NCBI RefSeq assembly: GCF_028290205.1
Contig: NZ_JAQGKF010000255.1
Location: forward strand, 1 to 34,608
Reading direction: 5' to 3'
DNA: 34,608 bases
DNA from: Enterovirga sp.
GTDB taxonomy: Bacteria > Pseudomonadota > Alphaproteobacteria > Rhizobiales > Beijerinckiaceae
Numbering within the stretch: position 1 is the first letter of the stretch; every line of letters begins with the position of its first letter. The translations under genes and the position numbers were made by a program. This document shows positions 24,275-33,215 of the stretch, piece after piece. The notes below the pieces were generated by a model that searched no databases, had not been told where the DNA came from, and was given only the letters and a program-made list of their open reading frames with translations.

Positions 24275-26668
24275 TCAGCGCCGCGCCGGTGGCGGAAGCC
24301 GCGTGATCTCGACCCGGGCCTCGCCTTCGTTGTCGGCGTAGCGGTCGGCCGTGAGCCCGAGCCCCGGTGTGGTGACGAAGGGCACGGCCACGATGCCCTC
24401 GTTCACGAAGAGGCCGGCCAGACCGTTGGCCACGGCCACGAACTCCGCCGTGTAGGTCGCGACGCCGTCCGGCCTCTGTCCGGAACCGCACGCGCAGGTG
24501 AACGTGAGCGACTGGAGCTGCGCGTCCCGGCCCGGGCGCGTGATGCGGAGCACGGGCTGAAACGGGCGGTCCCGGGCGGAGCGCCGGACGAAGCTGGCGC
24601 CGAGCCGCTCGCTCAGCGGCAGCCGGGCGTTGTCGATCCCGCCCGGATCGGTCGGGATGGTCCGGTCGCGCCACGCCTGGGGCACCGCAATGGTGATCCG
24701 ATAGCGGTCCCCTTTCGCGAGCGGCTGCCCGAGGTTCCAGCACGCCTGCCGGGTCGAGAACGTGACCGGGCCCGCGGCCTGCCCGGCAATGCCCGGCGGG
24801 GTCAGGTCGCAAACCGCTCCGCTCCGCTCCCGGGAGGCGAGGTCCCAGCGCCCCCACAGGACCACGAAGGTGAGCGCCGCCAAAGCCAGCCCCCCGACAA
24901 GCAGGAGCAGGCCGAACAGGCCGGGAAGGGCCCACCACTTCAGATACTGGAAGGTGCGCTGGTAGCAGGCGGAGGCTCGGATGGCGTAGATCCCGCCCCG
25001 GGGTCTCGACCTCCTCCGGCCGGCCTCGCTGCGCGATTCGCCCGTGACCTGAGGGAGGCCGAGCGACTGGGCCCAGAGCTCACGCGACCCGTCCCGGATG
25101 CGCCGCTCCAGGCTCGAACTCCGGCCGAGCAGGCCCATGATCACCAGCATCAGGCCCGCAGCCGAGGCCGGTGCCGCCGCAAAGGCGTCGAGCCAGGTCT
25201 GGGCGAGCCCAGGCAGCACCATGCCGAGGCCGGAGAAGAAGGGGCTCAGAACGCAGGTCGGACCGAGGCACGGCCCGGGCGGCCACTGGCTCTGGAACCA
25301 CGGAAACGCGGCCAGCATGAGTGACAGGATCACGACCAGGAAGTAATTGACCCGCCGGCGCCAGACGTCGTTCCAGACCCATTCCTGCCGGGCGGCCCGG
25401 AACGGGGTGCGGTGCCGGGTCAGGCCACCCTGCCGGTCGAGGACATGGAATTCAGACGGCAGACCGATCGGCGCGTAGCTGTCGGTGCCGTCCCTGATCC
25501 GCTCGAGCACGCTCTCGTGGACGACGATGCGGGTGAGAAAGCCTCTGTCGTTCCGGTTCGGGTTCTGCTGCAACCGCGTGGTTCGATCGGGCACCACCAG
25601 GCGGGCGCTCAGCTTGCGGGGCTGGTAGCGGTAATAGGCGGCGATGCCGCTCCGGGAATCGTAACGCCGCCCGAAGGGGTTCGCCGGCGGGCGCGGCTCC
25701 TGCCGGTCCGGCGGGGCATACCGAAGGCCCTCCTTGGCGGCCTCGCCCATCATCCAGTCGAGCGGCACGATGGACAGCGCGTCGTCGGCATAGCCGCCGC
25801 CGACATTGCTGTGCACGCCGGCGAACCAGACCTGCTGCAAGCGGCCGGGCGACCGCCCGGGCTCCGCCGCGAGAGCGGCCTCCCGCCGCTCGTCCCAGAG
25901 CAGCGGCTGGAAGCTGTCGCGCTCCTCATCCAGGGCCAGCGCGTGCCGGGCACATCTCACCTGCCGCGACAGGTGATAGTCTGGCATCGAGAGTGGCCAG
26001 ACCCACCTGTCGATGCCCCGCGTCATCTCGTCGATCGGCAGGCCGTAGGCGGCCACGGTGTCCCACACGCCCAGAAACGCGATCTCGGGTTTGTGCGCGG
26101 CGCCAGACGGAACGTCCATGCGGCGCAGCCAGCGCCAGCCCGCGATGAGCCGGTCTCGCACGTCCCGAATTTTCTCGACCAAGCTGACGCGCTGGCGCTC
26201 TGGCCCGCAAGCGCTGCTGTCCTTTGGAGAAAACAGCTCCAGCCGATAGCGCCGCCGATAGGCCCGGTATGCGTCCGCAACCAGGAGTTCGAGCTCGTCC
26301 TCGCCCCTGTAGCGAACCAGCCCCTGCGAGGCGACCAGACCGCACAGCACCCGGGCCGTGAACGCACCTCGGCTGAAGCCGAAGGCGAAGATCCGATCTC
26401 CCGGCTGGTAGTTGCGGCATAGGAATTTGTACATCTCCTTGGTGTTGCGGGCGACGCCGATGCCGAACACGCTGCCGAGAAGGGCGAAGGGGCGGAAGCC
26501 GGAGGTGCCGACGCCGTCGATGTAGAAGGCGAGCTGGCGGCACTGGCCCGGAGCGGGACAGCCCAGATCCAGAGCGCGGTAGAGCCGCCACACGTTGGTC
26601 TTGGTGGTTGCCGCGGCCCCGTTCCCCGTCCCGTCGGAGAAGAGGACGATGTTGCGCGGCGTCGTCAT
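24275..26668 (-). CDS. Membrane-anchored DUF2235 (Tle1-like) alpha/beta hydrolase
   Basis: 797-aa protein. The N-terminal DUF2235 domain (about 5-320) begins RNIVLFSDGTGN, carries the nucleophile elbow G-F-S99-R-G-A, the likely acid around LGVWDTVAAYG and the catalytic His286 in AGVHSNVGGGY, as in Tle1-type phospholipases. After about residue 435 come predicted membrane segments (about 441-458, 499-515 and 580-605) with basic loops, then a C-terminal region of about 180 residues with paired cysteines (CDL, ACW, CAC) and beta character. Start ATG 26668; the open frame to 26782 is dismissed as leader. No type VI secretion genes or VgrG/PAAR neighbours are visible, so a housekeeping lipid or envelope role is as likely as an effector. 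Confidence 0.85.
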   Translation of the reverse strand: MTTPRNIVLFSDGTGNGAAATTKTNVWRLYRALDLGCPAPGQCRQLAFYIDGVGTSGFRPFALLGSVFGIGVARNTKEMYKFLCRNYQPGDRIFAFGFSRGAFTARVLCGLVASQGLVRYRGEDELELLVADAYRAYRRRYRLELFSPKDSSACGPERQRVSLVEKIRDVRDRLIAGWRWLRRMDVPSGAAHKPEIAFLGVWDTVAAYGLPIDEMTRGIDRWVWPLSMPDYHLSRQVRCARHALALDEERDSFQPLLWDERREAALAAEPGRSPGRLQQVWFAGVHSNVGGGYADDALSIVPLDWMMGEAAKEGLRYAPPDRQEPRPPANPFGRRYDSRSGIAAYYRYQPRKLSARLVVPDRTTRLQQNPNRNDRGFLTRIVVHESVLERIRDGTDSYAPIGLPSEFHVLDRQGGLTRHRTPFRAARQEWVWNDVWRRRVNYFLVVILSLMLAAFPWFQSQWPPGPCLGPTCVLSPFFSGLGMVLPGLAQTWLDAFAAAPASAAGLMLVIMGLLGRSSSLERRIRDGSRELWAQSLGLPQVTGESRSEAGRRRSRPRGGIYAIRASACYQRTFQYLKWWALPGLFGLLLLVGGLALAALTFVVLWGRWDLASRERSGAVCDLTPPGIAGQAAGPVTFSTRQACWNLGQPLAKGDRYRITIAVPQAWRDRTIPTDPGGIDNARLPLSERLGASFVRRSARDRPFQPVLRITRPGRDAQLQSLTFTCACGSGQRPDGVATYTAEFVAVANGLAGLFVNEGIVAVPFVTTPGLGLTADRYADNEGEARVEITRLPPPARR

Positions 26669-26704
26669 GTTCCGCTCCCGCAGGGCCACACAACCTGAGG
26701 TCGA

Positions 26705-26733
26705 GTTAACGGGGCGCCGCTCGGCGACGTCAA
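26705..26733 (-). promoter_or_regulatory. Possible promoter of the DUF2235 gene
   Basis: TTGACG (26733-26728) and GTTAAC (26710-26705) with a 17-bp spacer on the minus strand, 37 bases before the ATG at 26668. The -10 is a partial match. Confidence 0.4.
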
Positions 26734-26877
26734 GCGCTTTGTTCGTCCGTCCCCCGAGAACTTCGCGCCGGGCCGGGTTCATCCCCGGCCGGCAACCGGC
26801 TATGACGCGCGACTGAGCCTGGACGGTGTGACTTCATCCCGGGACACCTGAACAGCGATCGAGAGCTGAGCCCCGGA

Positions 26878-27839: not shown

Positions 27840-28301
27840 CTATTCCTGGTTCTGACGAAACGCCGTCGTGGCCTTGTCGGCGGCCGAGCGCGTCGCGGCG
27901 GCCGCGTCGGTGGCGGCGGCCTGAGCCTGCGCGGTCGCCGAGCGGGCAGCGGTCTGCGCGATCTCGCCGAGTTCCTTCATCTGGACCTGCATGGCAGCAA
28001 ATTGCGTGCGGGCGAATTCGGCCTGCAGCTTCATGGCTTCCTGGATGTCCGTCGCCCGAACAAGGCGCTGGGCGTGGTCGAAGGCGGCAGAGATGTTCTG
28101 CTCCGCATAGGACAGCGTCTTGCGGGTGGCGTCGGACGCGCTGGTCTGCATGCTGGTGCGCGAGCCTTCGAACGTGTCGACGGCCTTGTGCGCGGCACCC
28201 AGAAAGCCGTCGAACGCCTTGCGGGCCTGATCCACGCTCTTTTCGGCGAAGTCCCTCATCTCGACCGGAACTTCGTACTTCATGCCCTGAGCCTCTGCCA
28301 C
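27840..28301 (-). CDS. Phasin family protein
   Basis: 153-aa amphipathic, Ala-rich helical protein of the phasin family, which coats polyhydroxybutyrate granules. The conserved N-terminus MKYEVPVEMRDFAEKSVDQARKAFDGFLGAA and the middle SYAEQNISAAFDHAQRLVRATDIQEAMKLQAEFARTQ are typical of alphaproteobacterial phasins. The C-terminus is an Ala/Thr/Gln tail with coiled-coil character. The start chosen is GTG 28301 because AGGAGG lies five bases upstream; the alternative ATGs at 28319 and 28283 lack such a site, and the longer frame to 28358 would read through the promoter. The upstream region holds a well-spaced promoter with a perfect palindrome over its -10. A terminator follows. Confidence 0.9.
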   Translation of the reverse strand: MAEAQGMKYEVPVEMRDFAEKSVDQARKAFDGFLGAAHKAVDTFEGSRTSMQTSASDATRKTLSYAEQNISAAFDHAQRLVRATDIQEAMKLQAEFARTQFAAMQVQMKELGEIAQTAARSATAQAQAAATDAAAATRSAADKATTAFRQNQE

Positions 28302-28317
28302 GTCACCCTCCTGCTTC

Positions 28318-28334
28318 ATGTTGCACTGCAACAT
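28318..28334. promoter_or_regulatory. Perfect 17-bp palindrome over the phasin promoter, putative PhaR-type operator
   Basis: ATGTTGCA-C-TGCAACAT, two perfect 8-bp arms about one central base, 17-33 nt before the phasin GTG. It overlaps the putative -10 hexamer and the expected transcript start. In PHB-producing bacteria phasin genes are repressed by PhaR, which binds TGC/GCA-rich sites; the inner TTGCA-N-TGCAA fits that type, but the assignment is inferred. Confidence 0.65.
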
Positions 28335-28358
28335 ACGCAATGCCTCTTGAAAGGGCAA
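28330..28358 (-). promoter_or_regulatory. Putative phasin promoter
   Basis: TTGCCC (28358-28353) and TATGTT (28335-28330) on the minus strand with exactly 17 bp between. The expected transcript start is near 28323, within the palindrome. Confidence 0.6.
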
Positions 28359-28469
28359 GCGCGCTGCACGCCGTTAACGTTACGGAGAAGTAAATGGGTC
28401 CGCGGCAATCCGGTCCTCGCTTTCCGGGGACGGATTTGCTTTCTCTCAGGCCCTAACCGAGACGTCGTC

Positions 28470-31737: not shown

Positions 31738-32274
31738 TCAATGGCCGGTCTGGTCGGCGCCGCGGCTGGCCTCGAACAGGAACCAGGTCCGACGCTCGGC
31801 CTGATCGATGAACTCCTCCAGCAGGCTCGCGGTCGCCACGTCCTCGTGCTCGTCGCACACGTCGTGCGCGTCCCGCATGTTCTTGGTCATGTCCTTGTTG
31901 TCCGAGATGAGTTCCCGCAGCATGTCGAGCGGGGGGACGAACTCGGCGTCGTTGTCGGCGACCCGGGACATGCCGTTGATCTGGCCAATCGACCGAAGGG
32001 TGTTGCCGCTGATCTTGCGGACCCGCTCCGCCAGGGGGTCGATGGCGGCGAAGATCTCCTCTGCGTGTTCGTCCAGCATGAGGTGGTAGTCGCGAAAATG
32101 CGGCCCGCTCATGTGCCAGTGGAAGTTCTTGGTCTTCACATAGAGCGCGAAGCTGTCGGCCACGAGGCCGTTGATCGCCGCCGAGATCGCGCGCACCGCC
32201 TGCTCGTCGAGATCGGTCGGGGTCTGGAGGTTGGAGCCGCGCGCGCTCGGCGCGGCTTTCGCTGTCTTCGCCAT
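31738..32274 (-). CDS. dps: Dps family DNA-binding ferritin-like protein
   Basis: 178-aa mini-ferritin that oxidises and stores iron using peroxide and protects DNA. Ferroxidase ligands are evident in NFHWHMSGPHFRDYHLMLDEHAEEIFAAIDPLAERVRKI (H52, H64, D68, with the acidic pair further on in EEIFAAIDP). The N-terminus MAKTAKAAPSARGSN is a short basic tail, as used for DNA binding in some Dps proteins. ATG start at 32274, 104 bp after bfr on the same strand; a strong hairpin lies in that gap. Together with bfr and bfd it forms an iron-storage cluster. Confidence 0.95.
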   Translation of the reverse strand: MAKTAKAAPSARGSNLQTPTDLDEQAVRAISAAINGLVADSFALYVKTKNFHWHMSGPHFRDYHLMLDEHAEEIFAAIDPLAERVRKISGNTLRSIGQINGMSRVADNDAEFVPPLDMLRELISDNKDMTKNMRDAHDVCDEHEDVATASLLEEFIDQAERRTWFLFEASRGADQTGH

Positions 32275-32378: not shown

Positions 32379-32888
32379 TCAGGCGCCGACGCCGGGGCTG
32401 CCTCCCTCGCCGTCATCGAGCTTGCCGATGAACTTCTGCGCGTAGAGCTGGAGGCCGAGCTGCTCGACCAGGTTCAGCTGCGTTTCGAGGAAGTCGATAT
32501 GCCCCTCCTCGTCGGCGGCCAGCTCCTCGAACAGGATCTTCGACACACGGTCGTTGACGCTGTCGCAATACTTGGCGGCTTCAAGATAGAGCGCGCGGGC
32601 TTCCACTTCCGCGGCGAGATCGCATTCCAGGATCTCCTTGACGGTCTGGCCGATGCGCAGCGGGTCGAGAACCTGCAGGTTGGCGAAGCCTTCCAGGAAG
32701 AGGATGCGCTGAACGAAGCGGTCCGCATGCTCCATCTCTTCGATGGATTCCTTGCGCCACTTCTTAGCGAGGTCCTTGTATCCCCAATCGTCCAGGATGC
32801 GGTAGTGCAGCCAATACTGATTGACGGCGGTCAGCTCGCTGCGGAGCCCCCGGTTCAGATATTCGATGACCTTCGCGTCGCCCTTCAT
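32379..32888 (-). CDS. bfr: Bacterioferritin
   Basis: Heme-containing iron-storage protein (169 aa) forming 24-subunit cages. The family numbering is preserved exactly: ferroxidase ligands E18, E51, H54, E94, E127 and H130, and the heme-binding M52 in [10 protein letters not shown]-terminus [30 protein letters not shown] is standard. The C-terminus has a short Gly/Asp-rich extension ([12 protein letters not shown]). The ATG at 32888 has GAGGG seven or so bases upstream. It follows bfd after 57 bp and is probably cotranscribed with it. Confidence 0.98.
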
Positions 32889-32945
32889 CGCACCCTCGTT
32901 TGCTCCGATGGGGTGGATTTAGGCCCGGGGCCGCGCGATGTCCAG

Positions 32946-33215
32946 CTAGTTTAGAACCGTTTCAAGAAGCGGGTTCGCCTCAGCGGGCCGGTGCCCATGC
33001 TCGGTGTGGGCCAGCGGGCAGCTGCCGCACGCGTCCTCCGCGCCCCGCAGCGCCGCGTCCATGATGGCCCGGATCGAGCGGGCGCAGCGCCCGCAATTCG
33101 GGCTGCAGCCGAGGCAGCGATAGACCTGGGCCGGCGTGCGGGGGCAGCCGGGGCCGTCGCCGAGGCACGCTTTCACGTCGCCATCGGTCAGCACGTTGCA
33201 GGAGCAGACAATCAT
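32946..33215 (-). CDS. bfd: Bacterioferritin-associated ferredoxin
   Basis: 89-aa [2Fe-2S] protein that docks to bacterioferritin and donates electrons to release stored iron. Cluster ligands are C4 and C6 (IVCSCNVLTD) and C41 and C44 (SPNCGRCARSIRAIM), with two further cysteines C34 and C37 just before. The C-terminal 25-30 residues form an extension with Cys/His (DACGSCPLAHTEHGH) longer than in E. coli Bfd. ATG 33215. An Irr-type iron control element lies 7-23 nt upstream of the start codon, so transcription is probably iron-controlled. First gene of the bfd-bfr unit. Confidence 0.95.
   Translation of the reverse strand: MIVCSCNVLTDGDVKACLGDGPGCPRTPAQVYRCLGCSPNCGRCARSIRAIMDAALRGAEDACGSCPLAHTEHGHRPAEANPLLETVLN

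Follow-up and report, generated by a model that had tools for sequence, protein, structure and literature searches.

The window examined here, the whole stretch of 34,608 nucleotides from Enterovirga sp., carries on its minus strand a gene for a PhaP-type phasin (27840..28301). The likely start codon is a GTG at 28301-28299, and the other in-frame starts are ATG codons at 28319-28317 and 28283-28281. Read from the GTG, the 153-residue product matches the phasin family PF09361 (1.8e-14; 54.2 bits against a cut-off of 24.9), and a query that began one codon upstream of the GTG scored 118.4 bits against TIGR01985, the curated cut-off of which is 99.7. Two genes from the phasin, also on the minus strand, lies a gene whose product has the catalytic domain of a T6SS Tle1-like phospholipase (24275-26782; PF09994, 2.9e-69). 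Two adjacent minus-strand ORFs at 32379-33215 resemble, by eye only, bacterioferritin and bacterioferritin-associated ferredoxin, and a ferritin-like protein (PF00210) is encoded beside them at 31738-32274. Between the phasin gene and a divergent PAS-histidine kinase gene, the stretch GTTAACGTTACGGAGAAGTAAAT at 28373-28395 is kept in congeners, as seen when the window is aligned with these and with two named species of Microvirga (alignment A1); it presumably recalls a CtrA-type TTAA site.

Positions 28318-28334 form a perfect 17-bp palindrome, ATGTTGCACTGCAACAT, composed of ATGTTGCA and TGCAACAT on either side of a central C. The palindrome spans the -10 region of the phasin gene, as the first-pass annotation of this DNA had claimed and as direct reading of the sequence confirms. 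Along the minus strand, the hexamer TTGCCC (28358-28353) is followed after 17 bp by TATGTT (28335-28330), and then by GCAGTGCAACAT, the ribosome-binding site AGGAGGG (28312-28306) and the GTG; AGGAGG-like sites also precede the starts of relatives. Transcription would begin approximately 7 bp past the -10, i.e. inside the palindrome. TTGCCC and TATGTT would be the -35 and -10 of the promoter. Both hexamers and their spacing are present and are partly echoed in relatives, but the hexamers are weak, and the promoter scan reported no sigma-70-type site at the phasin promoter. Of the 26 box-bearing phasin promoters compared, the window's own among them, 18 have TANNNT fused directly to TGC, and 11 of those 18 also have TTG[ACT]NN 16-18 bp upstream. 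Because this layout is kept at the phasin promoters of relatives, the weak hexamers of the window gain support.

The centre of the palindrome, TGCACTGCA at 28322-28330, conforms to the core of published PhaR boxes, TGC-N3-GCA or YGCRNYGCR. On the minus strand this core reads TGCAGTGCA (28330-28322) and overlaps both the -10 and the predicted transcription start, so that the box lies on the phasin promoter as that promoter is predicted. To extend the comparison beyond the core, a weight matrix was derived from 32 paired boxes of 16 genomes that do not belong to the genus. This matrix of phasin boxes from other genera assigns the palindrome 28.0 bits (28316-28336), against 7.3 bits for the runner-up in 34.6 kb. 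As the training boxes were chosen by TGC-N3-GCA, the score tests the arms and the overall fit and not the core itself. The leave-one-out scores of the 32 training boxes range from 15.9 to 35.8 bits, and thus the phasin palindrome is a typical box and not an exceptional one.

The box is also a recurrent feature of phasin promoters. A search of 60 genomes, including that of Enterovirga, gave a phasin match in 45, and the promoters compared were those of 30 loci among the match rows, namely the window and 29 from other genomes, with 17 further rows treated separately. In the 200 bp that precede the matched region, TGC-N3-GCA occurs at 25 of the 29 phasin promoters from other genomes (mean 2.7 and maximum 9 in 500 shuffles), and two cores spaced 17-21 bp apart occur at 19 of them (mean 0.018, maximum 1). 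The upstream stretches of phaR, which served as a control, were taken from 40 to 240 bases ahead of a conserved motif for 30 of the 51 phaR genes found, and contain a core within 200 bp in 8 of 30 cases and a pair in one. Four of the 29 phasins (L021, L024, L026 and L032) have no TGC-N3-GCA within the 200 bp, and in two of these genomes boxes are found at other places: another phasin of G018 carries two with a 30-bp spacing, and at L032 a pair lies on the downstream side of the gene.

The paired arrangement is reduced at the Enterovirga phasin, where a single box is intact. The position of the distal box, 28349-28341 on the minus strand, reads CAAGAGGCA, in which only the GCA half remains according to the alignment with congeners and Microvirga. 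Matrix scores at the distal offsets of 17-21 are correspondingly low, at -30.3 to -58.7. Among the six genus members compared, two strict cores are present in G003, G006 and G002, and one in the window, G001 and G061; the last of these is not an unbiased case, because it was brought in by a pattern search for the box. Pairing is taken here as usual and not defining, because the depolymerase genes of S. meliloti are reported as single-box targets. The distal box has decayed to a half-site, and the phasin promoter therefore probably relies on one box. The further notion that the perfect palindrome, being unusually strong, offsets the loss of the distal box is unsupported, given that 28.0 bits is mid-range among the boxes of paired promoters.

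The predicted box is best appreciated beside the PhaR systems that have been characterized. The PhaR (AniA) motif of S. meliloti is given as a YGCRNYGCR core within the 21-letter consensus WNWD2NYGCRNYGCRNH2WNW, and in the available text of that study gel shifts were lost when the palindromes were removed or mutated (PMC12542648). The Enterovirga box resembles the boxes listed there for phaP1, phaP2 and SMa1961 in both its YGCRNYGCR core and its AT-rich arms at a phasin promoter; the site of ppdK is given as ATTTGGTGCACTGCAACAAAA. At phaP1 and phaP2 of S. meliloti two boxes flank the -35, and at SMa1961 a single box lies between the -10 and the start, whereas at the Enterovirga phasin the only intact box overlaps the -10 and the one upstream has decayed to a half-site (PMC12542648). 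Two PhaR boxes likewise flank the -35 of phaP1 in B. diazoefficiens, the proximal of which overlaps the -10 as in Enterovirga; unlike the looser NGCN3GC[GA]N3 described in the accessible portion of that report, the Enterovirga site is a full dyad and is single (PMC10888616). For R. sphaeroides, PMC12542648 cites the PhaR site CTGCNNNGCAG, which shares the TGC-N3-GCA core, but its flanking pair is C...G and not the T...A of Enterovirga.

The Enterovirga genome encodes a PhaR protein, with a match to PF07879 at 9.9e-29 and a score of 146.2 bits against the TIGR01848 equivalog (cut-off 109.5). Across the 60 genomes, PhaR is present in 43 of the 45 where a phasin was matched and in 8 of the other 15. 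The first-pass annotation had named PhaR control of the phasin as the obvious model, and the sequence data support it by way of a core as published, a PhaR equivalog in the genome and the 25 of 29 promoters that bear the core. The palindrome is very likely the proximal operator through which PhaR, a sensor of storage granules, would switch off the gene for phasin, a protein of the granule coat; switches of this kind are known, and this one belongs to another lineage. The genomes themselves show the box, where it lies on the promoter, how it is conserved at phasin promoters and that a PhaR gene is present; PhaR binding, repression and release by PHB at the phasin box would follow by analogy with work on other species. 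By this scheme, PhaR would occupy TGC-N3-GCA over the -10 and the start site when PHB is absent, and RNA polymerase would be blocked. As PHB granules form, PhaR would be drawn onto the granule and the operator freed, such that phasin would be made to match the granule surface. In the relative M. extorquens (Methylorubrum), both phasin genes were up in the transcriptome of a phaR mutant, and an older study quoted in the same paper found the change in phasin not to be significant (PMC6520949). That paper is also the nearest among those that the literature searches listed, which gave no mapped PhaR site for this lineage, and its available text presents a transcriptome and no mapped site (PMC6520949). 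What had been a bare palindrome is given a specific reading as an operator that can be tested. A weight matrix becomes available for this portion of the Alphaproteobacteria, along with candidate PhaR targets beyond the phasin, foremost a conserved small protein near metZ.

The palindrome could, in principle, serve instead a different regulator of PHB or stress genes, one whose sites have the same TGC-N3-GCA core as those of PhaR; this is the most durable of the alternatives, albeit an unlikely one. Counts of TATRTTGCRNYGCR are above the control not only in 31 PhaR-bearing genomes (112 against 10) but also in six for which no PhaR match was obtained (13 against 0), and the count does not single out PhaR because the excess extends to the latter. 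As to whether the box disappears along with PhaR, the genomes without a PhaR match are mixed: G011 (a 430-contig draft of 93% completeness) has two boxes upstream of its second phasin and none at its other phasin, and G051 has one core at -282 of its phasin. Boxes additionally precede genes outside the PHB cycle. Against this alternative stand the core and layout, which are those of published PhaR sites (in the available text of PMC12542648 and PMC10888616), the standing of phasins as the classic PhaR target, and the co-occurrence of phasin and PhaR noted above.

A role of the palindrome in the phasin leader RNA is less probable still. The transcript could form a hairpin with a 7-bp stem and a 3-base loop, and a 33-base piece folds at -6.6 kcal/mol, but with the predicted start inside the palindrome only part of it would be transcribed. 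Moreover, across the box-bearing promoters just 16 of 48 boxes have complementary bases beside the core, and it is TGC and GCA that are kept, the core having been the selection criterion.

Symmetry in itself says less than the first-pass annotation made of it, and the description of a dyad far beyond chance was overstated. Four perfect palindromes with 8-base arms around a one-base loop occur in the window, two of them overlapping, against a mean of 1.9 and a maximum of 5 in 40 dinucleotide shuffles of it; genome-wide, TTGCANTGCAA has only two sites in the 3.64-Mb assembly, and its reversed control also has two. Such palindromes with at least 50% A+T, like that of the phasin, are expected 0.05 times in the shuffles, the window has a single match to ATGTTGCANTGCAACAT at up to three mismatches (0.03 on average in shuffles), and the single occurrence of TATRTTGCRNYGCR in the Enterovirga genome is the phasin palindrome. 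What exceeds chance is sequence, position and conservation taken together, and not symmetry alone; the exact 17-bp symmetry is incidental, and the part that matters is TGC-N3-GCA flanked by AT-rich arms. A functionless palindrome of this form would be expected about twice in shuffles of the window, but the conservation of its position, sequence and layout in relatives and a matrix score 20 bits above all else in the window make this explanation highly implausible.

If the palindrome is a PhaR operator, related sites might be sought at the other PHB genes, and the first-pass annotation had proposed a search for the palindrome upstream of phaR, phaP and phaC, the outcome of which is mixed. In its exact form the palindrome is absent from these genes except at the phasin of the window, but a degenerate and paired form is found at a second Enterovirga phasin (C91), where two boxes of 18.9 and 12.9 bits, 31 bp apart, are situated around a TTGACG -35. 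Two apparent congeneric orthologs of this second phasin have two boxes 33 bp apart, and the two-box layout is thus found in three of three, Enterovirga's included. A third type of phasin has no core within 350 bp in any of six genomes, although the stretch of G003 may itself be coding. At the Enterovirga phaR/phaA, phaC, phaZ and third phasin loci no box was seen, and no matrix score exceeds 2.7; around phaR/phaA, where an autoregulatory box was sought and none found, the best score is -3.0. In the available text on S. meliloti, phaP and phaZ are PhaR targets, phaR/phbAB is weakly bound and phbC is not bound (PMC12542648). The Enterovirga phaC, for which no box was seen, is in this respect like S. 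meliloti phbC, which has no site, and the box-less Enterovirga phaZ is unlike the depolymerase genes of S. meliloti, both of which have a box (PMC12542648). Thirteen phaZ loci of nine genus genomes were judged by matrix scan alone, the frame finder having chosen the wrong frame in several; a second phaZ of G003 has 17.1 bits upstream, and the others reach at most 8.3. In G006, a box of 14.9 bits, just below the lowest training box, precedes the gene for 3-hydroxybutyrate dehydrogenase.

The strict 21-letter consensus of S. meliloti finds seven sites in the Enterovirga genome and four in the control. The window palindrome is not among the seven and, by reading, fails only at the outermost base. 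This miss is not disqualifying, because a departure from the consensus in an outer position is also found in one of the sites given for S. meliloti phaP1, the second, and the phaP1 promoter was nonetheless scored as efficiently bound (PMC12542648, in its available text). One of the seven sites, C79, scores 10.1 bits, and the strict consensus says little at this base composition. With one mismatch allowed, TTGNGCNNNGCNCAA was found at 48 sites, fewer than the 76 of the control, and was set aside as noise, even though the second phasin (C91) and a site between echA and rpoN (C202) were included. The pattern TKTGCRNYGCAMA occurs at 17 sites against 5 in nine genus genomes, and at 0 against 2 in the Enterovirga genome, where its absence is explained by the exclusion of GTTGC from the pattern by design. 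Several of the 17 sites precede genes without an evident link to PHB, and two of those that were scored have only 8.4 and 11.0 bits. Five further TATRTTGCRNYGCR sites of congeners range from 8.1 to 31.3 bits.

The second exact TTGCANTGCAA of the Enterovirga genome points to a possible target outside the phasins. It is situated 43 bp upstream of a 69-aa ORF (L001 1555-1764, C8), with an additional box 41 bp further upstream, and the ORF is divergent from metZ, the gene for O-succinylhomoserine sulfhydrylase. The ORF was found in six of the seven genus genomes searched. All six have a box in its promoter, at 22.0-31.5 bits, and in five the boxes are fused to TATRTT. The metZ gene adjoins the ORF in five of the six, namely Enterovirga and four congeners, and is not in the stretch of G004 that was examined. 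Outside the genus, TGC-N3-GCA lies within 300 bp of five of seven more distant ORF matches, at scattered positions. The 69-aa protein has no Pfam or NCBIfam match, and an apparent likeness to DUF1127 was rejected, since Pfam gave no such match in any of the six members even at an E value of 5; Rfam at its gathering score found nothing in five loci. A phaR mutant of B. diazoefficiens shows raised metZ among other genes, and the available text lists no predicted motif for it (PMC10888616).

Boxes at further genes are shared by pairs of genomes. One between the genes for enoyl-CoA hydratase (echA) and rpoN scores 17.8 bits in Enterovirga (C202, L172 1500-1520) and 19.0 bits in G003 (L169 1497-1517), and another, before the gene for an NMT1-type ABC substrate-binding protein, scores 27.0 bits in G006 and 16.9 bits in G004 (L168 and L162, 1497-1517). 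Just upstream of another small ORF there are boxes of 29.4 bits in G003 (L122 1542-1562) and 26.5 bits in G004 (L102 1495-1515), the two ORFs being 61% identical over 70 residues. These boxes, together with that of 3-hydroxybutyrate dehydrogenase, are candidates and not conservation counts, because they were supplied by pattern searches; the same searches also returned sites without an evident PHB link. It is suggested, tentatively and with slightly more doubt than confidence, that in this Microvirga-like lineage PhaR also controls the 69-aa gene, and possibly the second small-protein gene, echA/rpoN and the ABC binding protein. Were this so, PHB stores would act directly, via new small proteins, on the control of sulfur amino acids, fatty acids and nitrogen. 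As a separate observation, a conserved GGAAACG stretch follows the boxes of the 69-aa ORF (L001 1455-1764, L076-L080).
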